Positions 128 to 16,788 of a DNA stretch of 40,459 nt are shown here, in pieces. Under the pieces are notes generated by a model, which did no database searches, was not told where the DNA came from, and worked only from the letters and a program-made list of their open reading frames with translations. Location of the stretch: positions 1 to 40,459 of the forward strand of contig VBCG01000034.1 of NCBI GenBank assembly GCA_005881895.1, read 5' to 3'. The position numbers and the translations under genes were made by a program. The DNA comes from Betaproteobacteria bacterium. GTDB lineage: Bacteria; Pseudomonadota; Gammaproteobacteria; Burkholderiales; Casimicrobiaceae. Within the stretch, counting starts at the first letter, position 1. Each line of letters starts with the position of its first letter.

Positions 128-586
128 ATGTTGCGCTGGCAGCGCCATAAACGAATTTTGCTGTGCGCACTTGCGCTCATCGTGTGGGCGGACATCGCGC
201 AGGCGCAATGGGTGCTTCTCGCGCGACGTGCGATTGGACGCGTGGAGCAGATGTCACAAACGTCGCAAGACGGCAAGACAACCTACGACACGGCGACGGT
301 GATGGTCGAGGTTCCGGTCGACCGCGTCTACGATACGGTGCAACGCTCGGTGCGTGCAGCGCAGGGAATCACCATCACCAATGAAGATCCCGCCGCGCGA
401 CGCATTCAGTTCACGAACGGAACGCAGATCGCCGGCATCCAAGCGATCAGCTTCGGCGACAACCTCACGCAACTGATGGTCTCCTCGGCGCACAGCAATG
501 CGCCTAACCCGCCGACATCGATCATCGTCGAACGGATAATCGCCACATGCAAAGACATGAACGTCGAGTGCTCCCGAGCACCGTGA
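128..586 (+). CDS. Small secreted protein of unknown function
   Basis: 152 residues. The start ATG is preceded by a strong ribosome-binding site (AGGGAGGGG). The first 27 residues form a typical Sec signal: basic N-terminus, a hydrophobic stretch, then a cleavage site after AQA. The mature part is short and soluble, without transmembrane segments or a lipobox. It contains a region around VMVEVPVDRVYDTV that resembles the start of small DUF3568-like periplasmic domains, but I do not recognise the family with confidence. It is followed 18 nt later by the FecR-like gene, also with a good ribosome-binding site, so the two may be co-transcribed. A weak -10-like CATAAT sits at 91-96 upstream. Confidence 0.75.
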   Translation: MLRWQRHKRILLCALALIVWADIAQAQWVLLARRAIGRVEQMSQTSQDGKTTYDTATVMVEVPVDRVYDTVQRSVRAAQGITITNEDPAARRIQFTNGTQIAGIQAISFGDNLTQLMVSSAHSNAPNPPTSIIVERIIATCKDMNVECSRAP

Positions 587-604: not shown

Positions 605-1023
605 ATGGTGTGCATGTCGTCGTACTTCAACGTCGTTGCGTTTGCGTCCTGCTTCGCGACGTCGGCCGCCGCGGCCGACATCGGTCAAATCAAGGTCTCC
701 AAGGGATCGGTCACCGTCGAGCGCGCTGCGCAATCGCTGCCGGGCGTCATCGGCACCCGGCTGCAAGCGTCCGATGTCATCACCACGGGCGCCGACGGTT
801 CGGTGGGCATCACGATGAGCGACGACTCGCTCTTGTCCGCCGGGCCCAACAGCACGCTGTCGCTCGACCGGTTCGCGTTCGATTCGACCACGCATCAGGG
901 CCAATTCGACGCATCGCTTCGGGGCGCATTGCGAAACAGTCGCCGGACGCGATGACGCTGCGCACGCCGACGGCGATCCTCGGAGTACGGGGCACCGAGT
1001 TCGTCGTCAGCGTCGATGACTGA
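605..1023 (+). pseudogene. FecR-domain periplasmic protein, frame broken by an internal deletion
   Basis: Starts with AAGGAG upstream of ATG 605 and a signal peptide ending in AAAA. The first frame reads a FecR-like domain (IGQIKVSKGSVTVERA, then DVITTGADGSVGITM, then HQGQFDASLR) and stops at 955. The conserved end of the same domain (GRIAKQSP, then TPTAILGVRGTEFVV) is in another frame up to a stop at 1021-1023. FecR proteins of this kind normally have a stretch like RGTLAVIS between the two parts; here it is missing, which fits loss of about 25 nt near 919-922. Restoring 25 nt would give about 147 residues. The OmpA-type gene starts 8 nt before the second frame's stop, which supports that frame as the original end. 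FecR domains of this type occur with OmpA and CHASE2 proteins in secreted signalling modules. The frame could also be broken by a sequencing or assembly error. Confidence 0.7.
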
Positions 1024-1618
1024 CTTGCATTCGCGCGCCGCGGCGTTGGCGACAGCCGTGCTGTTGGTATCACTCTGCGGCTGCGCGCACCGTGGGACCG
1101 TCGTGCTGCTGCCCGAAAAAGACGGCAAGCCCACTGCAGTCGTCGTGAAGCAAGACGGTCGCGAGACCGTGCTCGATCAGCCTTACGCGGCCGCGCGGCA
1201 AACCCCTTTTGGGTTGCGTGCCTACACGTCGACGCCGGAAGAAGTGGCGTCGAAATTCGACGCCGCGATGAGCTCGCAGCCCAAGCGGGCCGTCGCGTTC
1301 ACGCTTTACTTCATCGAAGGCAAGGATGAGTTCACCGAAGACTCGAAGCACATCGTCGAAGTGGTCTCCGCCGAGATCGCGCAGCGACCGGTGCCCGATG
1401 TGATTGTGATCGGACACACCGATGCCGTCGGCAGCGATCCATTCAACGATGCGCTCGCACGCCAACGCGCCGACATGGTGCGCGCCGAGCTGATTCGTCG
1501 CGGCGTGCCGCCCGCAAACATTCAAGCGTCGGGACGGGGCAAGCGCGACCTGTTGATACCTACCGCCGATGGCATCGCCGAGCCGCGCAATCGCCGCGTC
1601 GAAATCCTTGTGCGCTAG
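1016..1618 (+). CDS. OmpA-family peptidoglycan-binding lipoprotein
   Basis: 200 residues. A signal peptide ends in a lipobox (LCGC, lipidated Cys about residue 23), so the mature protein is a lipoprotein. The C-terminal half is an OmpA_C domain: a beta strand FTLYFIEGKDEFT, then VIGHTDAVGSD, then the helix with NDALARQRADMVRAEL, then GRGKRDLL and the closing EPRNRRVEI. The conserved Asp in GHTD and Arg in RNRRVEI are the residues that hold diaminopimelate in this family. The gene overlaps the end of the FecR-like gene by 8 nt, suggesting translational coupling. It probably anchors an envelope complex to the peptidoglycan next to the FecR and phosphatase genes; that link is inferred. Confidence 0.88.
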   Translation: MTDLHSRAAALATAVLLVSLCGCAHRGTVVLLPEKDGKPTAVVVKQDGRETVLDQPYAAARQTPFGLRAYTSTPEEVASKFDAAMSSQPKRAVAFTLYFIEGKDEFTEDSKHIVEVVSAEIAQRPVPDVIVIGHTDAVGSDPFNDALARQRADMVRAELIRRGVPPANIQASGRGKRDLLIPTADGIAEPRNRRVEILVR

Positions 1619-2891
1619 CACCCGCTCATTGAACGCACGGCCACGCCAGCGCCAGCTTTCGGCGCGCGATATGGAAGTAATCCTCGGCGTCACGAGCGCT
1701 TTAGCGGCGCCGTTCGACCTCATGACGATGCTCGGAGAAGTGGTCGCAGCCGCGAAGCAAGTCCTGAGCGCCGATCGCGGCTCGGTCTGGCTATACGATC
1801 CGGCGACCGATGAGCTTGTCCTAGAAGTGGCGACCGGCATTCAGCCGGTGCGCGTGCCCTCAGGAGCGGGTCTCGTCGGTGCATGCGCTCGAGAGCGGCG
1901 GATCATCAACGTTCCCGATTGTTATGCGGATCCGCGTTTCGACCCGAGCGTCGATAAATCGTCCGGTTACCAAACGCGTTGCATGCTGACGTTGCCGCTG
2001 GTCGATCATAAGGACGGGCTCGTGGGTGTGATGCAAGTGCTGAACAAATCCGGCGGCGTCTTTGATGAAGACGACGAGGCGCTGGCGACAGCGTTGGCGG
2101 CGCAATGCGCGGTCGCACTCCAGCGCGTGCGCATGACCGAGGCGCTGATCGAAGGCGAGAAGATGCGACAGGCGCTGGAAATGGCGCGCGAGGTGCAGAT
2201 GAGCACCCTACCCGCGGCGATGCCCATGCTGCCCACTTACGACGTTTGCGGTACGTTTCGCTCCGCCGAACTGACCGGCGGCGACACCTTCGACCTCTCG
2301 ATGCTCGATCAGGGACTGTTGATCGTTCTGGGCGATGCGACCGGACATGGCATCGCACCGGCGCTCTCGGTCACCCAGATGCATGCGATGCTGCGCATGG
2401 CTTTCCGGCTCGGCGCCGATTTGCCAACGGCCTTCATGGAGGTAAACAACCGGCTCACGGAGACGTTGGCCGCGGACCGCTTCATCACCGCGTTTGTCGG
2501 GCTGCTGAATCCACGAACCCATCGCCTGCACTTCCATAGCGGCGGACAAGCGCCGATCCTTTACTATCAAGGCGCAGATGGCGCTTGCGCACGCTACATG
2601 CCGACGAGCTTTCCCCTGGGGGCGATGCCGTTGGCTTCGCTGAAGCCCGCGGTGACGATCGATATGCTTCCCGGCGACATTCTGGTGCTTTTGTCGGACG
2701 GTATCTACGAAGCGCAGAACGGGCGCGGCGAAGAATTTGGCGAGACACGGGTCCAGACGCTCGTTCAGGCGCATCACGAAAAGCCGATGGCCGAATGGCT
2801 GGTGCTGCTGTTCGAATCGGTGAAGGCGTTTGCCGGAGGAGCGCCGCAAGAGGACGACATGACGGCAGTTGTGGTGAAGCGCAAGGCGTAA
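1608..2891 (+). CDS. GAF-PP2C (SpoIIE/RsbU-type) serine phosphatase
   Basis: About 427 residues from TTG 1608; ATG 1569 would overlap the OmpA gene by 50 nt and ATG 1671 is also possible, none with a clear ribosome-binding site. The N-terminal half is a GAF domain (from LMTMLGEVV to ALQRV), with no membrane segment, so it is a cytoplasmic sensor. A short helical linker with AREVQMSTLP leads to the PP2C_SpoIIE domain. Metal-binding acidic residues are visible in ELTGGDTFD, GDATGHG, LLSDGIYEA and QEDDMTAVVV. In partner switching such enzymes dephosphorylate a STAS antagonist. An RsbW-like kinase and a STAS protein follow directly, so its likely substrate is the product of 3349-3642. Confidence 0.92.
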   Translation: MCASTRSLNARPRQRQLSARDMEVILGVTSALAAPFDLMTMLGEVVAAAKQVLSADRGSVWLYDPATDELVLEVATGIQPVRVPSGAGLVGACARERRIINVPDCYADPRFDPSVDKSSGYQTRCMLTLPLVDHKDGLVGVMQVLNKSGGVFDEDDEALATALAAQCAVALQRVRMTEALIEGEKMRQALEMAREVQMSTLPAAMPMLPTYDVCGTFRSAELTGGDTFDLSMLDQGLLIVLGDATGHGIAPALSVTQMHAMLRMAFRLGADLPTAFMEVNNRLTETLAADRFITAFVGLLNPRTHRLHFHSGGQAPILYYQGADGACARYMPTSFPLGAMPLASLKPAVTIDMLPGDILVLLSDGIYEAQNGRGEEFGETRVQTLVQAHHEKPMAEWLVLLFESVKAFAGGAPQEDDMTAVVVKRKA

Positions 2892-2894
2892 GAC

Positions 2895-3362
2895 GTGACG
2901 ACGTCCGCAGCGTTCAAACGCAGCTTCGACTCGATCCCCCGCATCTTCGCGCTGACGGCGGAGGCGTTTGCCCGCGACGGCATCGATCCGCGGTTGTTGC
3001 ACACCGTCGATCTCGCGCTGGAAGAGTTGTTCACGAACATGGTGAAATACAGCACGACGACCGATGCGGCGGTACAGGTCGAAATTGTCGCGATCGAAGA
3101 CGGAGTCGAGGTGACGCTGACCGATTATGATGTCGAGCCGTTCGATGTCACCCAGGCACCGGACGTCGACATCACGTTACCGATCGAACAGCGGCGCCCT
3201 GGGGGGCTTGGCCTGCATTTGATCCGCCGCCTGTTGGATTCGATCGAATACGACTATTCGAAGGAAAAGCGGCGCAGCCGTATCACGTTTCGAAAAACGC
3301 AATCCGGATCGCCCGCTTCCAGGCGCGTGGCGAATAAAGGCGAAGAGAATGCTTGCGATTGA
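2895..3362 (+). CDS. RsbW-like anti-sigma factor / serine kinase (HATPase_c_2)
   Basis: 155 residues from GTG 2895, only 3 nt after the phosphatase stop. It has the GHKL ATPase fold: an N box in LALEELFTNMVKYS (the conserved Glu and Asn), and a G box in RRPGGLGLHLIRRL near residue 100. No sensor or membrane part. This is the size of RsbW/SpoIIAB-type kinases, which phosphorylate a STAS partner and bind either that partner or a target protein. It overlaps the STAS gene by 14 nt. The target may be a sigma factor, but neighbourhood alone does not say which: the ECF sigma factor next door has its own anti-sigma, and RpoS lies 26 kb away. Confidence 0.88.
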   Translation: MTTSAAFKRSFDSIPRIFALTAEAFARDGIDPRLLHTVDLALEELFTNMVKYSTTTDAAVQVEIVAIEDGVEVTLTDYDVEPFDVTQAPDVDITLPIEQRRPGGLGLHLIRRLLDSIEYDYSKEKRRSRITFRKTQSGSPASRRVANKGEENACD

Positions 3363-3642
3363 TTTTGTGGACGGCGGCGGCGTCACCATCGCCGGTCGGT
3401 TGGACGCTGCCGAAGCGCCTCGCGCGCAGACTTTTTTCGATCGGCTCGAAGGCACGGTGACGCTCGATTGCAGCCGACTCGAATACATCTCGAGCGCCGG
3501 CCTCGGCGTGCTGCTCAAGACGCAAAAGCGGCTGCTCGCGTCGGGCGGCAAGATACGGCTGACGGGCGTCAGCAGCCATCTGAACGACATCCTCGGCTAT
3601 TCCGGCTTCGACCGGATCTTCGAAGTCGAGCGGGCGCGTTAG
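3349..3642 (+). CDS. STAS-domain anti-sigma factor antagonist (RsbV/SpoIIAA-type)
   Basis: 97 residues, essentially one STAS domain. The phosphorylation loop is clear: LDCSRLEYISSAGLGVLL, in which a Ser of the SSAG stretch is the residue phosphorylated by the kinase in this family. The start overlaps the kinase gene by 14 nt, so production of kinase and antagonist is probably balanced by translational coupling. In the known scheme, the unphosphorylated form binds the RsbW-like kinase and releases its target, and the PP2C enzyme upstream restores that form. A second, separate STAS protein is encoded at 12246-12635. Confidence 0.9.
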   Translation: MLAIDFVDGGGVTIAGRLDAAEAPRAQTFFDRLEGTVTLDCSRLEYISSAGLGVLLKTQKRLLASGGKIRLTGVSSHLNDILGYSGFDRIFEVERAR

Positions 3643-3679
3643 GCCCCCGCACCAACTTTTCGCGCCGCCGCGTGTAATT

Positions 3680-4228
3680 GTGGACGACGACACCGATCGG
3701 GTGTTAGTGGGCCGCTACCGCAACGGTGATCGCGCGGCATTTGCCGAGATCGTGATCCGCTACCAGCGGCCCATCTACAACGCCGCGTTCTGGGTGCTCC
3801 GCAGCGTCGAAGACGCGCAGGACGTCGCGCAGATCGTGTTCCTCAAGGTGGCCGAGCGGCTGGACGAATATGACGGACAGTACAAATTTTTCAGCTGGAT
3901 CTATCGGATTGCGGTCAACGAATCGCTTAACCTGCTGCGCCGGCACGGTCGCGAGGAGCCGCTCGACGACGAGATCGACTTGCCCGACGCAGACAGCGCC
4001 AACCCCGAATCGAAGCTCAATGACGCGCAGGTTTCCAAACGGATCCAGAGTGCACTGATGACCATGTCCGCCAACGATCGGCTGGTGCTAACGCTCCGGC
4101 ACTTTTCCGAATGCAGCTACCAGGAGATCGCAGAAATCCTCGACGTCGATGAAAAGACGGTGAAATCGCGGCTCTTCGAAGCGAGACACCGCCTTCGCGA
4201 CCTGCTCGTGGACCTGCATCAACACTGA
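3680..4228 (+). CDS. ECF-type RNA polymerase sigma factor
   Basis: 182 residues from GTG 3680. Region 2 is seen in FAEIVIRYQRPIYNAAF and DAQDVAQIVFLKV (the -10 binding helix), continuing into FFSWIYRIAVNESLNLLRR. Region 4 is the C-terminal helix-turn-helix, with LRHFSECSYQEIAEILDV followed by TVKSRLFEARHRLRD. No region 1 or 3, as expected for extracytoplasmic function sigma factors. The next gene starts 1 nt after its stop and looks like a membrane anti-sigma factor, the usual partner. The sequence shows no obvious autoregulated promoter directly upstream, and the 37-nt gap to the STAS gene suggests co-transcription with the partner-switching genes. Confidence 0.93.
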   Translation: MDDDTDRVLVGRYRNGDRAAFAEIVIRYQRPIYNAAFWVLRSVEDAQDVAQIVFLKVAERLDEYDGQYKFFSWIYRIAVNESLNLLRRHGREEPLDDEIDLPDADSANPESKLNDAQVSKRIQSALMTMSANDRLVLTLRHFSECSYQEIAEILDVDEKTVKSRLFEARHRLRDLLVDLHQH

Positions 4229-4229
4229 T

Positions 4230-5099
4230 ATGAACGATCACGAACGCGCGCGATTGATGCATGTGGTCCTCGACGGCGAAGCGACCCAAGCCGAGGCACG
4301 CGAGCTCGACCGCCTTTTGGCGGCGGAACCCGCGGCGCGCACCGAATTCGAGCACTTGCGGCGCCTGTTTGACGGGCTCAACCGGGTGCCCAAGGTCTTT
4401 CCGCCCGAAGGCTTGGTCGCCGCCGTGATGGCGAATATTCCGCAAAACTCGCCGCCACAGAAGCGTCTCGACCAACTATCATTGCGGTCACGTGTAATTG
4501 GGTTAGCTTCGATGAAAGCTCGGGGCAAAAGCCCGGGGAAATCGGCAACGGACCTTCCGGCTCACCAACCGGCGATTTATCTGAGGGAGTGGAAAATGAA
4601 CGAGCAGAACAGCAGTCTCTTGCGCAAGCGCAACGTCTGGATCGGCGGCGGTATCGCCATAGCGGCGGCGCTCATTGCGCTCTCTTACACGATCGACTTT
4701 CCGCCCGGCGCGCAGAACACCGTCGGGACGATCGTGCCGGCGCAGCGGTACAAGGCCGCGCAGCCGGTGATAGAAGACATCAAGGCGGGTGGTCAGGCCG
4801 CGACGCAATCAGTACCCGTGCAAGCCGGCTCGGCGACCAATGCCGCGGCGAGCAACGCGACCGACCGCGCCGCTGCCCAAGCAACGCTCCAAAACGCGAA
4901 TCAGGCGACCGACCGCGCCGCTGCCCAAGCGACGCTCCAGAACGCGAATCAGGCGACCGACCGCGCCGCTGCCCAAGCAACGGCCCAGAGCGCGAATCAG
5001 GCGACCGACCGCGCTGCTGCCCAAGCAACGGCCCAGAGCGCGAATCAGGCGCTCGACCGAGCCACGAGCCAAGCGATATCCAACGCCGCAGCCAGATAA
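4230..5099 (+). CDS. Putative transmembrane anti-sigma factor with 16-residue helical repeats
   Basis: 289 residues. Residues 1-75 resemble the cytoplasmic helical domain of anti-sigma factors (DGEATQAEARELDRLLAAEP is typical), but the zinc-binding H-C-C motif of many such proteins is absent. One membrane segment follows (VWIGGGIAIAAALIALSY, about residues 131-152), so the C-terminal part should be periplasmic. That part ends in four near-identical repeats plus one degenerate one, with the pattern ATDRAAAQATxQxANQ, probably helical. The linker around 4480-4590 looks poorly coding. ATG 4596 inside the frame has a very good ribosome-binding site (GAGGGAG), so this may instead be two genes that became one frame, or may also yield a separate 167-residue membrane protein. 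Pairing with the sigma factor is inferred from adjacency. Confidence 0.72.
   Translation: MNDHERARLMHVVLDGEATQAEARELDRLLAAEPAARTEFEHLRRLFDGLNRVPKVFPPEGLVAAVMANIPQNSPPQKRLDQLSLRSRVIGLASMKARGKSPGKSATDLPAHQPAIYLREWKMNEQNSSLLRKRNVWIGGGIAIAAALIALSYTIDFPPGAQNTVGTIVPAQRYKAAQPVIEDIKAGGQAATQSVPVQAGSATNAAASNATDRAAAQATLQNANQATDRAAAQATLQNANQATDRAAAQATAQSANQATDRAAAQATAQSANQALDRATSQAISNAAAR
4596..4598 (+). promoter_or_regulatory. Possible internal translation start with strong ribosome-binding site
   Basis: GAGGGAG followed by 6 nt and ATG lies in frame inside the anti-sigma-like gene. From here the reading frame encodes a 167-residue protein with an N-terminal membrane segment and the repeat array. It may mark the start of an originally separate gene. 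Confidence 0.45.
4857..5096 (+). repeat. 48-bp tandem repeats encoding 16-residue units (4 plus 1 degenerate)
   Basis: Units begin at 4857, 4905, 4953 and 5001, with a diverged fifth at 5049. Each is exactly 48 bp and in frame, so copy number can change without breaking the gene. The first two units read ATDRAAAQATLQNANQ; the next two have A for L and S for N. DNA identity between neighbours is very high, which suggests recent amplification or gene conversion. Confidence 0.93.
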
Positions 5100-5120
5100 C
5101 GCTCAGGGAAGCAGTCCGCG

Positions 5121-5152
5121 ACCGCCGGCCTCGGGCCGGCGGTTTTGCTTTT
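5121..5152 (+). terminator. Rho-independent terminator after the sigma/anti-sigma genes
   Basis: A perfect GC-rich stem (ACCGCCGGCC, loop TCG, GGCCGGCGGT) is followed by a T-rich tract TTTGCTTTT. It lies 22 nt after the anti-sigma stop and ends the transcript before the gene at 5204. Confidence 0.88.
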
Positions 5153-5203
5153 GTGCGACGATCGATTACGCTACGCGCGTCCAAATAACGAAGGGGAGAA
5201 TGG

Positions 5204-8137
5204 ATGCGCGGCCGCGTTCTATGTTTGCTGTTGGCTTTGATGTCTGCTACGTCCGCCGCCGATGAAAACTCTCTCGGACTATCGTATGTCGAAACGAAGG
5301 ACCTGAGGCTCATCTACTTCGATTCTCTGGATTACCTCGTACCGCACGCAGTTCGGACCTTCACCAACTCGCTCGAATGGCAACGCCGGATGTTCGGCTG
5401 GGTGCCGTCCGAATCAACTACGGTCCTGCTCTCCGACTTGTCGGACTACGGCAACGCCGCGACGTGGTCGGCGCCGCACAACACGGCGTTCTTCAGCATA
5501 GCCCCGCTATCCCACGCGTTCGAAACGTATCCCGCGAGCGAGCGCATGTACTCGCTGATGAATCACGAGCTCGTGCACGTCATGCAGGGCGACATCTCGT
5601 CCGAACAGGATCGTCGCTGGCGCCGATTTTTCCTCGGCAAGGTGTCCCCGCAATCGCAACATCCCGAATCACTGTTGTACAGCTACCTGACGGTCCCCCG
5701 CTTCACTGCACCTCGCTGGTACTCGGAGGGCGGCGCGGTATTCATGGAGACGTGGATGGACGGTGGACTTGGCCGAGCGCAGGGCGGCTATGACGAGATG
5801 GTGTTCCGCGCGATGGTGCGCGACGACGCGCATTTTTACGATCCGCTCGGGCTCGTATCGCGCGGCGTCCAGGTCGATTTTCAGGTCGTCTCGAACGCGT
5901 ATCTCTACGGCACGCGGTTCGTCACTTACCTCGCGTACACCTATTCGCCCGAAAAAGTTGTTGCATGGTTTCGGCGCGACGATGGAAGCGCGCGCTATTA
6001 CTCGGACAACTTCCGCGAAGTGTTTGGCCTTTCTCTGGAGAAAGCGTGGCAGGACTGGATCGTCTTCGAGCACGAGTTCCAGCGCCAAAATCTTGCCGAG
6101 GTCCGCAAGAACCCCATAACGCCCTACCGCAAACTGGTCGGGCGAGCGATGGGTTCGATTTCGCGGATGTACTACGACGAAAAAGATGGGACGATCTATG
6201 CGGCCTTTCGCTATCCGGGGTTCGTCGAGCACGTTGGCGCGCTGAATACGCGCGACGGTACCGAAAAGCGACTCGCCGACATCAAACGCGCGATGCTGTA
6301 CCGCGTGGCGTCTTTTGCCTACGATCCGGCGAGTGGAACGGCTTTCTATACCAACGACAACCTCGCACTGCGCGATTTGATGGCGGTCGACGTCAAGACT
6401 GGCGTGGTGACAATGCTGCTCGAGAACGCGCGGATCGGCGATATCGCCTTCAACCCGATCGACCGTTCGCTGATGGGCGTGCGCCACGTGGACGGTCTCG
6501 CAACGCTCGTACACATTCCGTATCCCTACAAAGATTGGACTACGCTCTACACGTTTCCGTACGAGTCGGTGCCCTACGATCTTGACATCTCGCCGGACGG
6601 ACGGCTGCTGTCGGCCTCGATGAGCGAAGTCACCACCGATCAGTTCGTGCGCGTTTGGCGGATCGACAAGCTGCTCGCCGGCGACGTTAAGCCGCTCTCC
6701 GAGTTTCGCTTCGGTCAATCGATCCCCGAAAGCTTCGTGTTCTCGCACGACGGACGTTACCTGTACGGCAGCAGCTATTACACCGGGGTATCGAACATCT
6801 TTCGTTATGAAGTCGCGACCGGCGACATCGAAGCGGTTTCGAATGCGGAAACGGGTTTCTTCCGTCCGGTAGAGCTCGCCGATGGCCGGCTCGTCGTGCT
6901 CACCTACACGGGCGAGGGATTCGTGCCCGCCATCATCGACCCGCGTCCGATCCAGGACGTGAGCGCGATCAAGTTTCTCGGCGCCGAACTCGCCGAGAAA
7001 TTTACGATCGTCAAAACCTGGCAAGTTCCCGCACCCAGTACCGTCGATGACGAAAAGCTGATCGTCGGCAAGGGTCCCTATGCGCCATTGCGCAACGTCG
7101 GATTGACGAACGGCTTTCCGGTATTGCAGGGCTACAAGAACCATGTGGGCGTCGGCTATCACCTGAACTTCGAAGATCCGATCCGGTTCGCGAAGTTCGG
7201 CGCCACGGCGGCCTACACGCCCGCCGAGAGTCTTCCCGGCAATGAACGCGGCCACGTGGACATCAACGGCAGTTATCTCGGCTGGCGAGGCGAGCTGTCC
7301 TGGAACCGATCGAATTTTTACGATCTATTCGGACCCACGAAGCGCAGCCGCAAGGGTCTCGCGGCGAAGCTCGGCTACGAATGGCTGATGATCTACGACG
7401 AGCCACGGAAATTGACGCTGACATCGGACCTCGAGTATTTCGACAAGATCGATACGCTGCCCACCGCACAGAACGTCGGTACTACGTTTACGCGGCTGAT
7501 GACGGGGAAGGTAGCGCTCGACTACACCGACGTGCGGCGCTCGCTCGGTTCAGTCGACGACGAACAGGGCCATAGCTGGACTGTGAAGCTCGACGTCAAC
7601 CAGGTGCAAGGTCAAATCATTCCGCTGGTGCACGGCGGGATCGATTTCGGCGTTGCGCTTCCTCTTCCGCATTCGTCCGTTTGGCTGCGGAGCGCGGCTG
7701 GCGTCGCGAGTGGAGACCGCAACAACCCGGTCGCCAATTTTTATTTCGGCGCGTTCGGCAACAACTACGTCGACGACGGCAACGTGAAGCGTTATCGCGA
7801 GTATTACTCGTTGCCGGGATTCGACATCGATCAGATCAGCGCTCACAGCTTTGTCCGCGAAATGGTGGAGTGGAATCTACCGCCTGTCGTTTTTGAATCG
7901 GCCGGCACGCCGGGCTTCTACCTGAATTGGCTGCGCCCCGCGGTCTTCGGTGCTGCGCTTTGGTCGGACCCCGGGAAAACGACCCGCAAGAACTATGGCA
8001 GCATCGGCACGCAGGCCGATCTCCGCTTCAGCGTCCTCCATTGGTATGAAACGATGCTATCCGTCGGCTTCGCCATCGGCCTTCAGGGAACGAAGCGCGT
8101 CGGCAGCGAGTGGATGATCTCGCTCAAGATCATGTAA
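5204..8137 (+). CDS. Large secreted zinc-metalloprotease / beta-propeller / predicted outer-membrane barrel protein
   Basis: 977 residues; start ATG 5204 has AAGGGGAG upstream. A signal peptide covers about residues 1-19. Residues 20-290 look like a gluzincin (peptidase MA-type) domain: HELVH at 121-125 with a likely third zinc ligand Glu175 in WYSEGGA. Residues 310-600 show repeated strand patterns of a TolB/WD-like beta-propeller (for example LDISPDGRLL, FVFSHDGRYLYGSSYY). From about 640 to the end are alternating amphipathic strands that look like an Omp85/surface-antigen-type beta-barrel. The last residue is Met, not the usual aromatic one. It may be an outer-membrane protein carrying a periplasmic or surface protease. 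The domain order is read from patterns, so barrel and propeller limits are approximate. It sits between the ECF/anti-sigma pair and PrsW. Confidence 0.82.
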   Translation: MRGRVLCLLLALMSATSAADENSLGLSYVETKDLRLIYFDSLDYLVPHAVRTFTNSLEWQRRMFGWVPSESTTVLLSDLSDYGNAATWSAPHNTAFFSIAPLSHAFETYPASERMYSLMNHELVHVMQGDISSEQDRRWRRFFLGKVSPQSQHPESLLYSYLTVPRFTAPRWYSEGGAVFMETWMDGGLGRAQGGYDEMVFRAMVRDDAHFYDPLGLVSRGVQVDFQVVSNAYLYGTRFVTYLAYTYSPEKVVAWFRRDDGSARYYSDNFREVFGLSLEKAWQDWIVFEHEFQRQNLAEVRKNPITPYRKLVGRAMGSISRMYYDEKDGTIYAAFRYPGFVEHVGALNTRDGTEKRLADIKRAMLYRVASFAYDPASGTAFYTNDNLALRDLMAVDVKTGVVTMLLENARIGDIAFNPIDRSLMGVRHVDGLATLVHIPYPYKDWTTLYTFPYESVPYDLDISPDGRLLSASMSEVTTDQFVRVWRIDKLLAGDVKPLSEFRFGQSIPESFVFSHDGRYLYGSSYYTGVSNIFRYEVATGDIEAVSNAETGFFRPVELADGRLVVLTYTGEGFVPAIIDPRPIQDVSAIKFLGAELAEKFTIVKTWQVPAPSTVDDEKLIVGKGPYAPLRNVGLTNGFPVLQGYKNHVGVGYHLNFEDPIRFAKFGATAAYTPAESLPGNERGHVDINGSYLGWRGELSWNRSNFYDLFGPTKRSRKGLAAKLGYEWLMIYDEPRKLTLTSDLEYFDKIDTLPTAQNVGTTFTRLMTGKVALDYTDVRRSLGSVDDEQGHSWTVKLDVNQVQGQIIPLVHGGIDFGVALPLPHSSVWLRSAAGVASGDRNNPVANFYFGAFGNNYVDDGNVKRYREYYSLPGFDIDQISAHSFVREMVEWNLPPVVFESAGTPGFYLNWLRPAVFGAALWSDPGKTTRKNYGSIGTQADLRFSVLHWYETMLSVGFAIGLQGTKRVGSEWMISLKIM

Positions 8138-8148
8138 CGGGACGAGCA

Positions 8149-9207
8149 TTGCGCGTTCTTTATGCACACACCATCGAGTCGGCTGTGGTCGGCTTGCTGC
8201 CGGTGGTGACTTTCCTCGCCGCGCTGCTGTATCTCGATAGCTACAAGTTGGTGAAGCTGCGCACGGTCATTGCAGTGGTGGCATGCGGCGCTGTCGTAGC
8301 GGCATTCTGTTATGTCGCCAATGCCTATCTCCTGGGTTGGTTGGCGATCGATTTCGTCACCTTCACCCGCTATGTCGGACCGATCACCGAGGAGTTGCTG
8401 AAGAGCCTTGTCATTGTTGCGCTGATCCGCTCGCATCGGATCGGCTTCCTGATCGACGCAGCGATCCTGGGCTTCGCCGTCGGCACCGGGTTCGCGACGA
8501 TCGAGAATCTCTATTATCTCGAGCGTGTTCGAGACGCCGGAATGGGGACGTGGATCGTCCGCGGCTTCGGCACCGCGTTGATGCACGGCGGATGCACCGC
8601 CGTCTTCGCGATGATGAGCGTGACGTTCCTGGAGCGGATGCGCAAAGCCACCTTCGCGCCGTTTGCGCCGGGTTTTGCGTTGGCCGTCTTGCTGCATTCG
8701 GCGTACAACCACATGTACGTTTCACCGAGGCTGTCGACGGCCGTCGTCATCGTCGTGCTGCCGCCGCTGCTGTTTCTGGTATTCCAGCGCAGCGAGAAAA
8801 CGGTGAGCAAGTGGCTCGTCGAAGGTTTCGACGCGGACACGCAGATGCTCGAATCGATTACCTCCGGCCATTTCGGAGATTCACCGGCCGGCCGGTATCT
8901 GAGCTCACTCAAACATCGCTTCAAGGGTCCGGTCGTCGCGGATCTGCTTTGCTACATTCGGCTTCATACGGAGCTCGCGCTCCGCGCCAAGGGCATGTTG
9001 CTGATGCGCGAGAATGGTTTCGACGTTGCCGTCGACGAAGAAACGCGCGCCAAATTCACCGAGGTGCGCTACCTGAAGCGAAGCATTGGCAAGACCGGGC
9101 TCCTCGCGGTCCTCCCGATGCTGTATGGAACGCATAAGGACATCTGGCAGCTCAACCTGCTGGGGGACGAGTCCGAGGCCCATTCCAGCGCAGCACCAGA
9201 ACCGTAA
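8149..9207 (+). CDS. PrsW-family intramembrane metalloprotease
   Basis: 352 residues from TTG 8149, which has GGGACGAG just upstream; an ATG at 8110 would overlap the previous gene by 28 nt. Several membrane segments are visible. The family's catalytic motifs are present: TEELLKS (EExxK), FATIENLYY, a His in TALMHGGC and another in LLHSAYNH. In Bacillus subtilis PrsW makes the first cut in the anti-sigma factor RsiW. Here a membrane anti-sigma-like gene lies 3 kb upstream on the same strand, so it is a natural candidate substrate, though unproven. The C-terminal 120 residues after the membrane part form a soluble extension. The end of the gene overlaps the convergent CHASE2 gene by 56 nt. Confidence 0.88.
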   Translation: MRVLYAHTIESAVVGLLPVVTFLAALLYLDSYKLVKLRTVIAVVACGAVVAAFCYVANAYLLGWLAIDFVTFTRYVGPITEELLKSLVIVALIRSHRIGFLIDAAILGFAVGTGFATIENLYYLERVRDAGMGTWIVRGFGTALMHGGCTAVFAMMSVTFLERMRKATFAPFAPGFALAVLLHSAYNHMYVSPRLSTAVVIVVLPPLLFLVFQRSEKTVSKWLVEGFDADTQMLESITSGHFGDSPAGRYLSSLKHRFKGPVVADLLCYIRLHTELALRAKGMLLMRENGFDVAVDEETRAKFTEVRYLKRSIGKTGLLAVLPMLYGTHKDIWQLNLLGDESEAHSSAAPEP

Positions 9208-11293
9208 GATCGTCGACCGGTTCCGCGCGCTCCACAAACGATGCGACATCGGCGCGAACGCCATCGACAATTCCGCGCGGCGTCGGACGCTCGCTGTCGA
9301 TGCGGGACAAGCATGCTTCGAGGCGCGCGCTGCCATAGAGCAGTCCCGCAGAATTCTGCGCATCGGTGACACCATCGGTAACGCAGCACAGCGATTGACT
9401 TTGCCGCATTTGACGGCATGCTCCGCGATAGTTGAAGCCATCGACCACGCATAGCGGCGGCCCATCGCCATCGCAAATGCGCTCCAACGGACCTGCGGCC
9501 GAAGAAAGGAGGAACGGATTTTCATGGCCCGCGTTGCAATACGAGAGGGCACCGGTATCGAGATCGAGAATCGCCGCAAACACCGTGACGAACAACATGT
9601 CGGGATTGTCGCGCGATACTTCGGCATTCGCCGCGACCATCAGTGCGCCGATGTCGGTGTCGGGCGCACGCAATGCCATGCTCTTGTACAACGCCTTGCT
9701 GACCGCCATGAAAATGCTCGCCGAGAGTCCCTTGCCCGCGACGTCGCCGATCAGGAAGAACAGTCGCCGCTCGTCGAGGCGAAAGAAATCGTACAGATCA
9801 CCGCCGACCTCGCGCGCCGGCGTCATCGCCGCCGCAAGCTCGATGCGATCGTCGTCACGCAGCAAATCCGCACGCGGCAGCATCCCCGTTTGAATCCGTT
9901 GCGCTGCTTCGAGCTCGCCAGCCATCCGTGCCGCCTGCTCGCGCGAGGCTTGCACGCTGCGCTCCAGCAACGTCTTTTGCCTTGTCGCTTCGCGGAACGT
10001 CAGAACCAGCAGCACGCCGGACAGCACGATCAGCGCAAGCCCTGGGGTTGCGGCATCGAACAGCCAGTGTTGCGAGCGGAAGAGTAGATAGCCGACGATA
10101 CCGGGAACGACGATGCTTCCGAAGGCGAGCAACCCCGCGCTCTGCGGCGCCCAGCGAGGCGCGGCAAAGATCAACAATCCGCCCAGAACAAGGAGCAACG
10201 CGATCTCGGGCACCCACGCCCATGCGGGCCGGAACAGCAGCGTCCCGTCGAGCAGATTTTCCAGCAACTGAGCTTGGACCTCCGTCCCTGTTATCGACTC
10301 TCTGAGCGGTGTGTTCTGATAGTCGGCAAGGCCGAGCCCTGTGACGCCCACCAACACGACCTTCTGGCGAAGACGTTCGTTGTCGATCCTGCCGTCGAGC
10401 ACATCAACTGCCGACACGAAACGGCGCGGATCGCGGCGCGAGTAGTACGGCCGCACTGCACCGTCGCCTTCGGGCGTCGTGCTCCAGTCGCCCGCCGCAA
10501 TGCGTTTGATCACAGCTCGGCGTGTCAGCAAGTGGAATGCCTCGGCGTGTTGTGCTACGCGCAGAAGCTCGATCGACAGCGCCGGCGCGAGCGTGCCGTT
10601 GATATCAAATACGAGTGGAACGCGGCGAATGATTCCGTCAGTGGGCAGCACTGATATCACTCCGCGTCCGGACGCCGCTCGATCGAGCTCGTCGAGGCTA
10701 CCGATAACGCCGTCGAATTTCGGTACGTCAAGTCGTTGCGGCGGCGCATCGTGTTGCGGGTCCGTGTCGCGCACCAGCATCGGAGTCATACGAAGGACGA
10801 CCCCGCTAGGCTCGCGTGTTCCCACCAGCGGAAGCACGGCGGACGTATCCGCGAGTACGCGCGCCAGCTCCTCATCGGTAGACGGCATCGCAGATAACCG
10901 CGCGGAGATCTCGATGTCGAATTGCCTGATCTGATCGAGCAGACGTTCGGCCGATAAGCGATCAGGCTCCCGCATCAGGATGTCGAGCCCGATGACGGCC
11001 GGTGGAGCGCGCGAGATTTCTCGAATCAGGCGGGCAAGCGTCGATCGCGGCCAGGGCCACTGGCCAAGGGCGGTAATGCTTTTGTCGTCGATCGCCACGA
11101 TGACGGCCGGCAGCGTGCTGACGTCTCGCGGCGCGATCCGTTGATACGCGTCGAACCAAATCGCTTGTAGGCGCGCCAGCGGCGCAAGCTCAAGCCAAGA
11201 GACAAACGCCAGTCCGGCGAGTACGACAATTCCGGTTTTTCGAATGCGGCTCGAGGCGCCGCGAGCCGGCCCCGACACCGGCGACGGAGTCAC
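9152..11293 (-). CDS. CHASE2-PP2C membrane sensor phosphatase
   Basis: 713 residues from GTG 11293. A first membrane segment (about 20-36) is followed by a large extracytoplasmic CHASE2 domain (about 45-345, including VIVAIDDKSI and QWPWPRS, a family hallmark, then VVLVGVTGLGLADYQNTPL). Three further membrane segments lie at about 353-430, then a short coiled coil (ATRQKTLLERSVQASREQ) and a PP2C_SpoIIE domain. Metal-binding acids are seen in AREVGGDLYDFF, IGDVAGKG, CVTDGVTDA and PVDDLTVLVL. It should sense a periplasmic signal and dephosphorylate a STAS protein. It overlaps the upstream MBL-fold gene by 4 nt (GTGA), and a STAS gene heads the same operon, which is the probable substrate. Confidence 0.93.
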   Translation of the reverse strand: MTPSPVSGPARGASSRIRKTGIVVLAGLAFVSWLELAPLARLQAIWFDAYQRIAPRDVSTLPAVIVAIDDKSITALGQWPWPRSTLARLIREISRAPPAVIGLDILMREPDRLSAERLLDQIRQFDIEISARLSAMPSTDEELARVLADTSAVLPLVGTREPSGVVLRMTPMLVRDTDPQHDAPPQRLDVPKFDGVIGSLDELDRAASGRGVISVLPTDGIIRRVPLVFDINGTLAPALSIELLRVAQHAEAFHLLTRRAVIKRIAAGDWSTTPEGDGAVRPYYSRRDPRRFVSAVDVLDGRIDNERLRQKVVLVGVTGLGLADYQNTPLRESITGTEVQAQLLENLLDGTLLFRPAWAWVPEIALLLVLGGLLIFAAPRWAPQSAGLLAFGSIVVPGIVGYLLFRSQHWLFDAATPGLALIVLSGVLLVLTFREATRQKTLLERSVQASREQAARMAGELEAAQRIQTGMLPRADLLRDDDRIELAAAMTPAREVGGDLYDFFRLDERRLFFLIGDVAGKGLSASIFMAVSKALYKSMALRAPDTDIGALMVAANAEVSRDNPDMLFVTVFAAILDLDTGALSYCNAGHENPFLLSSAAGPLERICDGDGPPLCVVDGFNYRGACRQMRQSQSLCCVTDGVTDAQNSAGLLYGSARLEACLSRIDSERPTPRGIVDGVRADVASFVERAEPVDDLTVLVLRWNGPRTRPPAG

Positions 11294-12249
11294 AAATCGA
11301 TTTCCATGCCATCGTACGCGGCACTCACGTGCAACGGCGCGCCAGTTCGCGTGATCTCTTCATAGCGCCGCGTGTCTTTCAATACTCCGGCGATCGTCTC
11401 GTCGCTCGACGCCGGCTCGTGGTGAAACAGGCACAGATGCCGCGCGCTCGCCCGTTGGCACAATTCAACTCCGACGAGGTTGCTCGAATGCCCCCAGTCC
11501 GCTTTCACGGAAATCGCGTCGGCGAGCGAATACATCGCATCGAAGATGACCACATCCGCGTCGCGAAAGAAATTGACGAACGCTTCGCTCGCTTGCGGAT
11601 CGGCAAGCTTGTGTTCCGAATCGGTCGAGTAGACAACGGTGCGGCCGCCCGATTCGAAGCGATAACCATAGGAATCGCCGCTGTGGTATTGCCGTATGAG
11701 CGTAACCGCCATCCCGGCAATCGAATGGCGCGTGTCCGGCTTGAGCCGGAAAAATTCGATCGTGGCGCGAAGCGCCGAGAAATCCACCGGAAACGATGGC
11801 GGCGACTGCTGCCGGCGCAGCGCGCCCTCGAGAGCCGCGTGGCCGCCGTAGATGCACAAGCGGTTGCCGGGAATGTAGGCGGGGGCAAAAAACGGGAACC
11901 CCATGATGTGGTCCCAGTGCATGTGAGACATGAAGATGTGATACGTCTGCGGTGCCTTGGCGCCGTGGCGCGCCAACGCCGCTTCGCCGAACGGTCTGAC
12001 GCCGCTGCCAAGGTCGCACAGTACGTAGTGCGGTTCGCCCGTCTCGATCTCGACGCAGGACGAATGCCCCCCGTAGGTTCCGCCGACGTGCAGGTCCAAC
12101 CCGTTGACGTAATCGGCCACGTCGCGATCGGTGACAAACGTACGGCCGTTGACGCCGCGTAACGCGGTGACCAATTTTTGGCGAACGCCCGCGGCGGTGA
12201 GCGCGACCGGCAAGGAGCCGCGGGTTCCCCAAAAGCGTATGCGCTTCAC
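11290..12249 (-). CDS. MBL-fold metallo-hydrolase
   Basis: 319 residues from GTG 12249. The metallo-beta-lactamase fold is shown by the metal-binding motif SHMHWDH near the middle, the earlier GTRGSLPV strand typical of this subgroup, YSTDSEH (a later metal Asp) and FHHEP near the end. The subgroup resembles predicted cyclic-nucleotide phosphodiesterases and RNase-Z-like hydrolases; the substrate is unknown. No signal peptide, so cytoplasmic. It overlaps both its neighbours by 4 nt (the STAS gene upstream and the CHASE2-PP2C gene downstream), so the three are almost certainly translated as a unit. A role in the same signalling pathway is inferred from this. Confidence 0.87.
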   Translation of the reverse strand: MKRIRFWGTRGSLPVALTAAGVRQKLVTALRGVNGRTFVTDRDVADYVNGLDLHVGGTYGGHSSCVEIETGEPHYVLCDLGSGVRPFGEAALARHGAKAPQTYHIFMSHMHWDHIMGFPFFAPAYIPGNRLCIYGGHAALEGALRRQQSPPSFPVDFSALRATIEFFRLKPDTRHSIAGMAVTLIRQYHSGDSYGYRFESGGRTVVYSTDSEHKLADPQASEAFVNFFRDADVVIFDAMYSLADAISVKADWGHSSNLVGVELCQRASARHLCLFHHEPASSDETIAGVLKDTRRYEEITRTGAPLHVSAAYDGMEIDL

Positions 12250-12635
12250 GCAGCACCTCTCTTGGGGACCGTATCATAGGCGGCAAGTGCCGCGGGCGAC
12301 AATTGCGCGAGCGCTTCGCGAACGGAGGAAAAAATCGCTAGGATCAGATTGAAACGACTGATCTCGAGGATTTCGCGAACGACCGGCTGGGGCGCGGCGA
12401 TGGCGATCTTCCGCTGTTCCGCATTCATCTCCTTCGCCGCCAGCATCAGGACGCGCAAGCCGACGCTGCTGATGTAGCTCACGCGGCTGAAGTCCAGTAC
12501 GAATGCGCCACGCTCCGGCTGATGCGCTAGCGCGGGCCAAAGCATGGATTTGAAGTCTTCGGCGTTGGTGTAATCGATCCTGCCTGCGGGTTCGGCCACG
12601 ACCACGTCGGCAAAGCGGCGAGTGGAAAGGTCCAT
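12246..12635 (-). CDS. STAS-domain anti-sigma factor antagonist (second copy)
   Basis: 129 residues from ATG 12635; the open frame continues upstream but only this start gives a clean STAS protein. The phosphorylation loop is LDFSRVSYISSVGLRVLML, with a Ser of SSVG as the likely phosphosite. The C-terminal tail (about 25 residues after the domain) is longer than in the other STAS protein at 3349. It is the first gene of the operon with the MBL-fold hydrolase and CHASE2 phosphatase. No RsbW-like kinase is encoded next to it, so it may be phosphorylated by the kinase at 2895-3362 or by one elsewhere. Confidence 0.88.
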   Translation of the reverse strand: MDLSTRRFADVVVAEPAGRIDYTNAEDFKSMLWPALAHQPERGAFVLDFSRVSYISSVGLRVLMLAAKEMNAEQRKIAIAAPQPVVREILEISRFNLILAIFSSVREALAQLSPAALAAYDTVPKRGAA

Positions 12636-12683
12636 GCGCTTAGTTTTAGCGTTTTGTCGTTTCTGGTCGAGGCCCGCCGGGGC

Positions 12684-12689
12684 ATTATA
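12684..12689 (-). promoter_or_regulatory. Possible -10 box for the STAS-MBL-CHASE2 operon
   Basis: A perfect TATAAT on the minus strand lies 49 nt upstream of the STAS start codon. No good -35 hexamer is visible at 16-18 nt, so it would need an activator or is a chance match. Confidence 0.3.
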
Positions 12690-12721
12690 GGAGCCCGGCC
12701 ACTTCACGGCGACCGTGTCTC

Positions 12722-13546
12722 CTAAAGCTCCGCGGCTTCCGCGGCCTTGGGCCGCCACACAAGGAGCCGCGCCTCGATCTTTGTAACGGCGAAATCGAGC
12801 AACAAGGCGAATAACGTCAACACCAGAATGCCGGCGATCACCGTGTTGATGTCGAACACGCCTTCCGCCTGCAAGATCAAATACCCGACACCGCGGGCGG
12901 AGCCGAGGTACTCGCCGACGACGGCGCCGACGAACGCCATCCCGACCGACGTATGCAGGCTCGAGAATACCCACGATGTTGCGGACGGCAAGTAGATATA
13001 CCGCAGTAATTGCCGTTTCGACGCGCCGAGCATGCGCGCGTTGGCGAGAACGACGGGGCTCACTTCTTTCACACCCTGATAAACATTGAAGAAGACGATA
13101 AAAAATACCAGCGTAACGCCCAGCGCGACCTTCGACAGCACGCCCAGGCCGAACCACACGGCGAAGATCGGCGCGAGAATCACGCGCGGCATCGCATTGA
13201 AGGCGGTAATGTACGGTTCGGCGATTGCCGACGCCGTAGGTGCGAGCGCAAGCCATAAGCCGATCGTCAATCCCAGCACGCTGCCGATCGCAAAAGCCAG
13301 CAGCGTTTCCCATAGCGTGATGGCGAGATGCGGATAAATCTTGCCACCCACGAACCATTCGATTACGACCTTGATCACCTGCAGCGGACGGCCGAAAAAA
13401 AACGCCGTATTCTTGGCGCTCGCTTCCGAAATGAGGATCGGCTCCGTCATCAGATACCAGAATGCGAACAGCGTCCCGACGAGCAGCGCCTGATAGAGCG
13501 CGAGCCGTCCGCGTGAAATGCGCGCATCAGCGCTTCGCTTGCGCAT
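12722..13546 (-). CDS. ABC importer permease (SsuC/TauC/ThiX type)
   Basis: 274 residues with about six membrane segments. The BPD_transp_1 coupling loop is visible at about residues 180-200 (NARMLGASKRQLLRYIYLP, the EAA-like motif that docks on the ATPase). Other family stretches are FNAMPRVILAPIFAVWFGLG and VGAVVGEYLGSARGVGYLI. It overlaps the ATPase gene by 20 nt and is the last gene of the three-gene transporter. The family imports small organic compounds such as sulfonates, taurine, nitrate or thiamine precursors; the sequence does not fix the substrate. Confidence 0.92.
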   Translation of the reverse strand: MRKRSADARISRGRLALYQALLVGTLFAFWYLMTEPILISEASAKNTAFFFGRPLQVIKVVIEWFVGGKIYPHLAITLWETLLAFAIGSVLGLTIGLWLALAPTASAIAEPYITAFNAMPRVILAPIFAVWFGLGVLSKVALGVTLVFFIVFFNVYQGVKEVSPVVLANARMLGASKRQLLRYIYLPSATSWVFSSLHTSVGMAFVGAVVGEYLGSARGVGYLILQAEGVFDINTVIAGILVLTLFALLLDFAVTKIEARLLVWRPKAAEAAEL

Positions 13547-14327: not shown

Positions 14328-15343
14328 CGATAGTTCTGCGCGGCTTTTTGCTGAAACGTCATGTTGAAGCTCTTTGCGACATCGACCGGCACTGTTTGTA
14401 TTTGCGGATCGAAGCTCTTCAAATCGCGATAGACCGCCTGCGCGGCGTCGATGCCGATCGAGCCGTCATGCTTGTACGTCTCGATGTTCTTTTCCAGCGC
14501 CGCCTTGTACTGCGCCCTGTCGGTGTAATAATCGGTCGGCACGGCGGCGACGATCTGATCAGGGGTTGACTGCTGAATGAAGCGCAACGCGTGCACCATC
14601 GCGTTGACGATGGCCTGTGCCGTGTTCGGATACTTTTTCGAGAAGTCGACGGGCACGTAAATGCAACCGGCCGCATACGCGCTGCCGTAGACGTCCTGCA
14701 TCCCCTTGGCGGTTCGCGTGTCGACCACGGGGACGATCGCGCCGTCGGATTCGAGCTGTGAAATGACCGGATCGAGATTGGAGATCGCGTCGATTTCGCC
14801 GCGCTTCATGATCGCGACGGCGCCGGCGGTCGCGCCGACGCCGATGATGGCCACCGAGTCCGGCGGGAGCTTCGCCTTGGCGAGCAGGACGTTGACGAAC
14901 ATGTTGGTCGATGATCCGGGCGCGGTGACGCCGATCTTCATCCCCTTCAAGTCGGCCGGCGACTTGTAGCTTGCCGCTTTCGCCTTCGACATGCCCAGCA
15001 CGATGCCGGCGTACTTACCCTGCAGCACCAGCGCTTCGATGCTCTGGCCTTTCGCTTGCTGCGTGATCGTGTGCTCGAACGCGCCTGAGACGACGTCGAC
15101 ACTGCCGCCGAGCAGTGCCTGAAGTGCGCGGGCGCCGCCGGGAAAGTCCTGCACCTCGACGTCGAGGCCTTCGGACTTGAAATACCCTTTTTGAAGCGCG
15201 ATCGTCAGCGGTAGGTAATAGAAGAGCGACTTGCCGCCCACACCAATCGTGATCTTCGGTTTTTCAAGCGCCTGAGCGTGCGCCGGCGCGGCCGGCGCAA
15301 GTGCGATCAACGATGCTGCAACGAGGTCTAAGAAGCGCCGCAT
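14324..15343 (-). CDS. ABC importer periplasmic substrate-binding protein (SsuA/NMT1-like)
   Basis: 339 residues with a Sec signal peptide cleaved after AHAQA (about residue 25). The start ATG has a very strong ribosome-binding site (AAAGGAGG). The mature protein is of the NMT1/TauA/SsuA type: KITIGVGG opening strand, LPLTIALQKGYFKSEGLDVEV, then GGARALQALLGGSVDVVSGAFEHT, and LKGMKIGVTAPGSSTNMFV. Such proteins deliver the ligand to the permease and ATPase encoded downstream. The ligand is not identifiable by eye. The gene's first 80 nt overlap the end of the C13 peptidase gene in another frame. Confidence 0.92.
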   Translation of the reverse strand: MRRFLDLVAASLIALAPAAPAHAQALEKPKITIGVGGKSLFYYLPLTIALQKGYFKSEGLDVEVQDFPGGARALQALLGGSVDVVSGAFEHTITQQAKGQSIEALVLQGKYAGIVLGMSKAKAASYKSPADLKGMKIGVTAPGSSTNMFVNVLLAKAKLPPDSVAIIGVGATAGAVAIMKRGEIDAISNLDPVISQLESDGAIVPVVDTRTAKGMQDVYGSAYAAGCIYVPVDFSKKYPNTAQAIVNAMVHALRFIQQSTPDQIVAAVPTDYYTDRAQYKAALEKNIETYKHDGSIGIDAAQAVYRDLKSFDPQIQTVPVDVAKSFNMTFQQKAAQNYR

Positions 15344-16766: not shown

Positions 16767-16788
16767 GAGGAACCCTGAAGGTGGCGCG

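Follow-up and report, generated by a model that had tools for sequence, protein, structure and literature searches.

The first 40,459 bp of a betaproteobacterial contig, referred to in their whole length as the window (bases 1–40459 of the 49,662 bp contig C146), contain a cassette of seven genes on the plus strand at 1671–9207. In order, these encode a PP2C phosphatase, an RsbW-like kinase, a STAS anti-anti-sigma protein, an extracytoplasmic function (ECF) sigma factor, an anti-sigma protein with a repeat tail, a zinc protease, and the intramembrane protease PrsW. The chances appear about even that the cassette is a proteolytic switch like that of sigmaW, RsiW, and PrsW, with a near-private regulon, an outer-membrane-type protease, and a partner-switching input. 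The parts are individually known; their combination appears to be new, a variation on a circuit of the sigmaW/RsiW/PrsW kind. The genome of the window is 4.29 Mb and 96% complete, in 260 contigs. Relatives were surveyed in 61 genomes of the family, this one included, and are labelled G (genomes) or L (loci).

Components of the proposed switch

The plus-strand genes of 1671–9207 are packed as in an operon, with the RsbW gene overlapping the STAS gene and the zinc-protease gene overlapping that for PrsW. All of the genes named in a first-pass annotation of this DNA are present on the strands it gave. The ECF sigma factor (3680–4228) is RpoE/SigW-like; its Sigma70_r2 and r4_2 domains are above the Pfam cut-offs, the sigma70-ECF superfamily is likewise above cut-off, and the SigW and RpoE models score high.

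The anti-sigma gene (4230–5099) starts 2 bp past the ECF stop codon and encodes a cytoplasmic domain, a linker, one transmembrane segment, a motif, and the repeat tail. As a single sequence, the first 82 residues match RsiW at E 0.37. When a profile of 16 members is used for this domain (4230–4475), RsiW is the best match in the PDB (E 3.3e-11), followed by BAG1 (0.006), RseA (0.014), and MucA (0.14). All 16 members also match an NCBIfam anti-sigma model weakly (best E 5e-8). The profile leaves out L027, L028, L077, L132, L133, and the four Aminicenantia loci in which no anti-sigma domain was recognised. RsiW is a known substrate of PrsW. Hydropathy indicates a single transmembrane segment after the anti-sigma domain, followed by a juxtamembrane motif, GTIxxAxRYxAxQ (GTIVPAQRYKAAQ at 4725–4763 in the window), in which the G, A, R, and Q do not vary across 19 sequences. 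These come from 19 of 25 loci, the others being out of the alignment for a wrong frame (L024), a shortened start (L023, L133, and L136), or because the search pattern missed them (L137 and L138).

PrsW (8110–9207) matches PF13367 above cut-off (E 5e-21) and falls below that of the NCBIfam PrsW equivalog (33 against 225 bits). Residues E94, E95, K98, H159, and H196 are each conserved at 95% or more in 22 orthologues. A C-terminal extension has no Pfam family match and is as well conserved as the membrane-embedded portion (mean 0.73 against 0.69 in 22 sequences). Arg and Lys follow the last transmembrane segment, which suggests that this C-terminal domain is cytosolic.

The zinc-protease protein (5204–8137) has a start that reads as signal-peptide-like, and contains the HExxH (here HELVH) and downstream Glu of the gluzincin (peptidase MA) metalloproteases. 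H121, E122, H125, and E175 do not vary in either of two alignments (18 and 14 rows). Searched whole, the protein matches no Pfam family at E 0.001; pieces of it give sub-threshold matches to Peptidase_MA_2 (E 0.011) and WD40 (E 0.0012). A PDB sequence search with the profile of the protein returned weak ribosomal-protein and propeller matches only. In the AlphaFold model there is a helical HExxH part, a propeller, and a set of C-terminal strands at 633–976 that resembles a barrel. Fold comparison identified the propeller as TolB-like (1crz, Z 21.5, root mean square deviation 2.9 over 239 residues), with other propellers at Z 19–20. This comparison covered mainly residues 304–586, so that the lack of a listed match for the protease and barrel parts is not evidence of new folds. 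The protein is proposed to lie in the outer membrane.

The three partner-switching genes precede the ECF gene. The phosphatase (1671–2891; GAF PF01590 E 5e-22, SpoIIE PF07228 E 3e-40) is taken to start at 1671, a position that relatives support; its open reading frame opens at 1569. It is followed by the kinase (2895–3362; HATPase_c_2, E 7e-18) and the STAS protein (3349–3642; E 6e-15). Catalytic and phospho-site residues are conserved in all three, including the metal-binding-type Asp residues of the PP2C (at least 95% in 18 orthologues) and the SSAG site of the STAS protein (at least 95% in 20). Numbering in the conserved-residue alignments of PP2C, RsbW, STAS, and PrsW runs 5 above protein numbering, and these alignments include partial or wrongly framed rows (the L076 PrsW is mis-framed and the L083 RsbW row is a fused protein).

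Promoter-like sites

The motif CCAACTTT-N12-GTGTAATT occurs twice in the window, against 0.04 occurrences expected. Copy 1 (3652–3679, plus strand, no mismatches) abuts the ECF start codon. Copy 2 (4472–4499, plus strand, 1 mismatch) lies within the anti-sigma frame, 96 bp before an internal ATG. Both places are kept in relatives with exact spacing, and the place of copy 1 is also found in L081–L084, L132, and L133 at 2–3 mismatches. An AAC-containing −35-like half and a fixed spacing agree with ECF promoters, and on this basis the motif is taken to be a likely promoter of the cassette sigma factor.

A whole-genome scan of 41 genomes at up to 1 mismatch, which would miss weaker sites, found 22 matches, of which 21 are in the cassette and one is elsewhere (G017). 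The reversed control pattern gave 2 matches. The motif is present in 14 out of 17 carriers of the protease and in none of the 24 other genomes. The regulon of the sigma factor seems, as judged from the sequences, to be near-private and to consist mainly of the cassette itself.

The variable tail of the anti-sigma protein

A tandem repeat of 48 bp (4.3 copies, 93% match) lies at 4857–5063 in the tail of the anti-sigma gene. Tandem Repeats Finder (TRF) found arrays in the tails of 23 out of 25 loci; their best periods range from 15 to 189 bp and are always a multiple of three. It found none in L025 and L134, though their translations look repetitive. The residues of the repeat units mostly differ between lineages. 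The tail is probably periplasmic. For the L084 repeat protein, residues 1–500 gave AlphaFold models with a best predicted local distance difference test (pLDDT) score of 67.5, the other four being at 56, 49, 49, and 40. The model has 7-residue helices every 9 residues, and no conclusion is drawn from it. Its top Foldseek matches are BurrH and designed repeats (TM-score 0.09–0.26), and the Pfam matches in these repeats (STI1-HOP, Plasmodium HRP, and MunI) look like low-complexity matches.

Metagenome contigs often end inside the repeat tail, as in L016, L017, L018, L019, L023, L025, and L026. The repeat lengths and gene content of the cassette are probably under-reported in draft genomes, because 7 of 11 split cassettes are broken there.

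A second protein, consisting of the transmembrane segment and repeats without the anti-sigma domain, is proposed to be nested at 4596–5099. It would start at the internal ATG, which has a purine-rich site upstream. By eye, such a site precedes the ATG ahead of the transmembrane segment in 21 out of 21 loci in which the start was located, and the nested ATG is in phase with the anti-sigma frame in 12 out of 12. The head of the transmembrane-repeat protein is found in 14 of the 61 genomes, 13 of them carriers of the cassette and one with a marginal match (G058, E 6e-4). The anti-sigma domain and the transmembrane-repeat protein share one continuous frame in the window, in L083 and L132, and in the other betaproteobacterial loci; they are separate genes in L081, L082, L084, and L133.

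The repeat protein may itself be the product of the cassette, such as a surface or periplasm-spanning fibre that PrsW releases and the barrel protein handles, with the fusion to the anti-sigma domain as a processing checkpoint. It is a separate gene in L075 as well as in the four loci above, reaches 726–942 amino acids in L083, L084, L132, L133, and L134, and is retained in L075 where the sigma factor and anti-sigma domain are not. In PMC3482391 it is proposed that PrsW acts as a peptidase that processes and releases toxins, some of them bearing long repeats. However, the head alone is conserved, the tails having no common sequence, and no secretion or assembly gene is seen in the cassette beyond the barrel protein. 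This explanation is considered fairly unlikely.

Distribution among genomes

Close relatives of the ECF sigma factor (E ≤1e-30) are present in 14 of the 61 genomes and those of the zinc protease (E ≤1e-20) in 19, including all 14 with the sigma factor. Gene order was compared across loci with tblastn matches of 33 bits or less dropped, except for the head of the transmembrane-repeat protein. The genes for PP2C, RsbW, STAS, and ECF are consecutive in all 14 ECF genomes, with the PP2C of G023 and the ECF of G013 cut by contig ends. In 19 out of 19 family carriers, PrsW comes directly after the zinc-protease gene and shares its strand. This bears out the co-occurrence of partner-switching and protease genes in the first-pass annotation; the genes are not scattered in the related genomes.

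The cassette is in one piece in 5 of the 19 carriers (the genome of the window, G010, G014, G015, and G019), and its halves are on different contigs in 11. In the remaining G002, G016, and G027, the half with the protease and PrsW was found alone, with no close PP2C and no close ECF (best 32–35% identity). In G005 and G012 the PP2C, RsbW, and STAS genes are on contigs that end just past STAS, and no close ECF was found. In L024 (G014, approximately 11370–12870), an extra gene separates the gene for the repeat protein from that for the zinc protease; it contains a stretch that we take to be GGDEF-like.

The zinc-protease profile had no match in 397 other Pseudomonadota drawn evenly, and matched 17 of the 142 genomes of the class to which L084 (titled Aminicenantes) belongs. 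Eleven of these Aminicenantia carriers were read, including three short contigs (L086, L123, and L135). The eight loci with enough sequence (L083, L084, L132, L133, L134, L136, L137, and L138) all have ECF, PrsW, and RsbW. Seven have STAS, L083 beginning inside a fused kinase gene, and seven have PP2C, none being seen in L138. PrsW is on the opposite strand in L083, L084, L132, and L133, and in L084 the RsbW-type kinase, a cyclic-nucleotide-binding domain, and the SpoIIE phosphatase are fused in one protein (2896–4494). A second ECF-like match is located downstream of the cassette in L134 (13863–14456). Locus L081, from an Eisenbacteria metagenome-assembled genome, has every part of the cassette but a recognisable PP2C. 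The record of L077 is titled Gemmatimonadaceae; its protease is 65–66% identical to betaproteobacterial proteases and it may be misbinned, and it is therefore not counted as a further phylum.

The grouping goes far beyond chance, as relatives keep these genes side by side, and accidental clustering was rejected on the retention of the gene set in the family, the Aminicenantia, and L081. A single function for the cassette is argued by the parts staying together despite changed order, strand, and fusions. It could still be a loose cluster, in which the partner-switching trio and the sigma and protease genes do different jobs from a shared operon; a common target of the parts is not known and L138 has no visible PP2C. 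This is nevertheless improbable, as the association is kept across such distant lineages and in several different chromosomal surroundings.

Independence of the adjoining genes

The cassette is flanked in the window by a second unit. On the plus strand are a FecR-like gene (605–1023; PF04773 E 0.0014 on its first part) and an OmpA-family gene (1016–1618; PF00691 E 1.6e-15). On the minus strand are a CHASE2-SpoIIE PP2C (9152–11293), an MBL-fold hydrolase (11290–12249), and a STAS protein (12246–12632). The FecR gene spans two reading frames, 605–955 and then the end of 610–1023, through either a real frameshift or an assembly error. The span described in the first-pass annotation began at 605 and so took in the FecR and OmpA genes without naming them; both belong to this second unit, as does the phosphatase that gives the RsbW/PP2C mark on the minus strand of the window in the gene-order comparison.

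Relatives of the CHASE2-PP2C (E ≤1e-60) are present in 21 of the 61 genomes, or 20 without that of the window, and 13 of the 20 were read for neighbourhood. The STAS, MBL, and CHASE2-PP2C genes are grouped in all 13, and OmpA and FecR converge on the group in 12 (not in L097). Cassette genes are beside the unit in none of them. Likewise, no FecR, OmpA, or MBL gene was detected in the cassette loci examined in the family and beyond it. In relatives, the genes at the flanks of the cassette make up at least four other groups, counting the loci of one genome together. Differing flanks, and the existence of the second unit without the cassette, suggest that the cassette moves as a block and seems to be self-contained and transplantable. 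In the window it lies exactly between the end of OmpA (1618) and the stop of CHASE2-PP2C (9152), an arrangement seen only here. The contig may be chimeric at this join, but each unit has one match in its own genome and the two meet in a 56 bp tail-to-tail overlap of PrsW and CHASE2-PP2C.

The first-pass annotation had suggested that both units might form one envelope-stress circuit, with a cytoplasmic input through GAF and a periplasmic input through CHASE2. The units adjoin and overlap here, and the second unit has no RsbW gene of its own visible in the window, so that a shared RsbW is conceivable. The side on which that gene would be expected is near the contig end; an RsbW-like gene is beside FecR in 7 of the 13 other loci (L092, L093, L095, L096, and L104–L106), and an open reading frame on the FecR side of the window (128–586, 152 amino acids) has no Pfam match. 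The combined circuit was rejected on the 13 loci that lack the cassette, and genomes such as G010, G014, G015, and G019 hold the units on different contigs. It is very improbable, and a place for the CHASE2-PP2C, MBL, and STAS genes in the circuit is not supported.

A mobile defence or toxin system with PrsW for release would fit the changing surroundings, the variable tail, and the toxin systems with PrsW described in PMC3482391, but is extremely improbable given that a PADLOC scan of ten proteins returned a 14-bit CARF match on the ECF and nothing else, and Pfam scans found no toxin or immunity domain.

Elsewhere in the window, a gene of the peptidase C13 (legumain-like) family at 15264–16838 (PF01650 E 4e-24) adjoins an ABC/NMT1 transporter pair.

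Model of the proposed switch

In the proposed proteolytic switch, the ECF sigma factor would be held by the single-pass inner-membrane anti-sigma protein through its RsiW-like cytoplasmic domain. As with RsiW, PrsW would be the first to cut, at a site close to GTIxxAxRYxAxQ in the periplasmic portion of the protein. The zinc protease probably helps, perhaps by trimming or holding the tail from its position on the side of the outer membrane. Cutting of the anti-sigma protein would free the sigma factor to use both promoter-like sites. The second of these would drive expression of the nested repeat protein together with both proteases, and for this reason the circuit would mainly feed itself. 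The nested form, having no anti-sigma domain, might dampen the response as a decoy substrate, or might itself be the product. GAF-PP2C, RsbW, and STAS would supply a cytoplasmic input, and the signal may be envelope stress.

Several observations weigh against this proposal. The match of the barrel to Omp85_2 (PF19143, E 0.0018) is, at 18.1 bits, under the Pfam cut-off of 23.1, and the model of the protease is of moderate quality (pLDDT 67), with residues 848–926 under 50. Neither copy of the motif is found within 3 mismatches in L026, and L136–L138 have none. In 17 of 19 loci, which come from several lineages, copy 1 directly adjoins the ECF start codon (10 GTG and 7 ATG; L026 is unscored), so that any transcript it gave would lack a leader or start inside the ECF gene; speculatively, it could yield the inhibitor without the sigma factor. 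The linker frame is open in all 12 loci compared, but 8 of them have a second open frame as well, and the coding nature of the linker consequently rests mainly on the kept reading phase. The stretch between the anti-sigma domain and the transmembrane segment might instead be a promoter region alone, and untranslated.

The sigma factor is also not the sole target of partner switching in L075. This locus (8835–10000, on the same contig as L139) is without the ECF and anti-sigma domain, yet keeps the transmembrane-repeat protein, the partner-switching genes, the protease, and PrsW. No motif is present at the corresponding place, and the genome has no ECF closer than 32% identity. Among the proteins kept in L075, PrsW has a sizeable cytosolic-looking part, and its C-terminal domain is the preferred, unproven, target of RsbW and STAS. 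In its fullest form the proposal becomes a trans-envelope switch, with the fast-changing tail of the anti-sigma protein reaching toward an outer-membrane zinc protease, PP2C, RsbW, and STAS controlling PrsW through its C-terminal domain, a regulon of little more than the cassette, and a nested copy of the inhibitor lacking the inhibitory domain. All of this together is quite unlikely.

Relation to known systems

The cassette shares with B. subtilis sigmaW/RsiW/PrsW an ECF sigma factor, a single-pass anti-sigma protein with an RsiW-like domain, and a PrsW-family protease with conserved residues. It differs in having PrsW within the same cassette and in the addition of the repeat tail, the zinc-protease/propeller/barrel protein, and the partner-switching genes. 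SigmaW has a broad regulon, whereas the promoter-like motif here is almost confined to the cassette. In the sigmaW circuit, breakdown of the anti-sigma protein is completed by a site-2 protease and ClpXP. SigB-type systems, in which the kinase binds and inhibits its cognate sigma factor, have the same three protein types, PP2C, RsbW, and STAS, with conserved catalytic and phospho-site residues. Here, in contrast, the cassette has a single sigma factor, an ECF that comes with an anti-sigma protein of its own, and L075 keeps the trio without it.

In cell-surface signalling of the FecI/FecR/FecA type, an inner-membrane anti-sigma protein has an outer-membrane partner with the TonB-receptor fold. 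The cassette similarly pairs an inner-membrane anti-sigma protein with a protein that may be in the outer membrane, but that protein is a zinc protease with a TolB-like propeller and no TonB-receptor fold, and the anti-sigma domain is RsiW-like. In PrsW-dependent polymorphic toxins, as described in PMC3482391, PrsW is likewise predicted to process an associated, sometimes repeat-bearing, protein, but in those systems PrsW and toxin domains are joined in one protein, mainly in Gram-positives. The cassette has an anti-sigma domain, and no toxin domain was identified in it. The gene set is not described in the literature searched, which did not cover the ECF reclassification, where an earlier mention of this ECF group is possible; nor is it described in the available parts of PMC8103513, PMC3482391, and PMC7406223.

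The hypervariable repeat tail on an anti-sigma protein is unusual, as is an ECF sigma factor with recognisable sites almost only in its own cassette. To our knowledge, what PrsW senses has not been settled, and a cassette that unites its substrate, a second protease, and a cytoplasmic input would make this testable. If the proposed switch is true, partner switching, anti-sigma proteolysis, and a protease apparently tied to the outer membrane, which are known mostly apart, would be joined in one portable unit.

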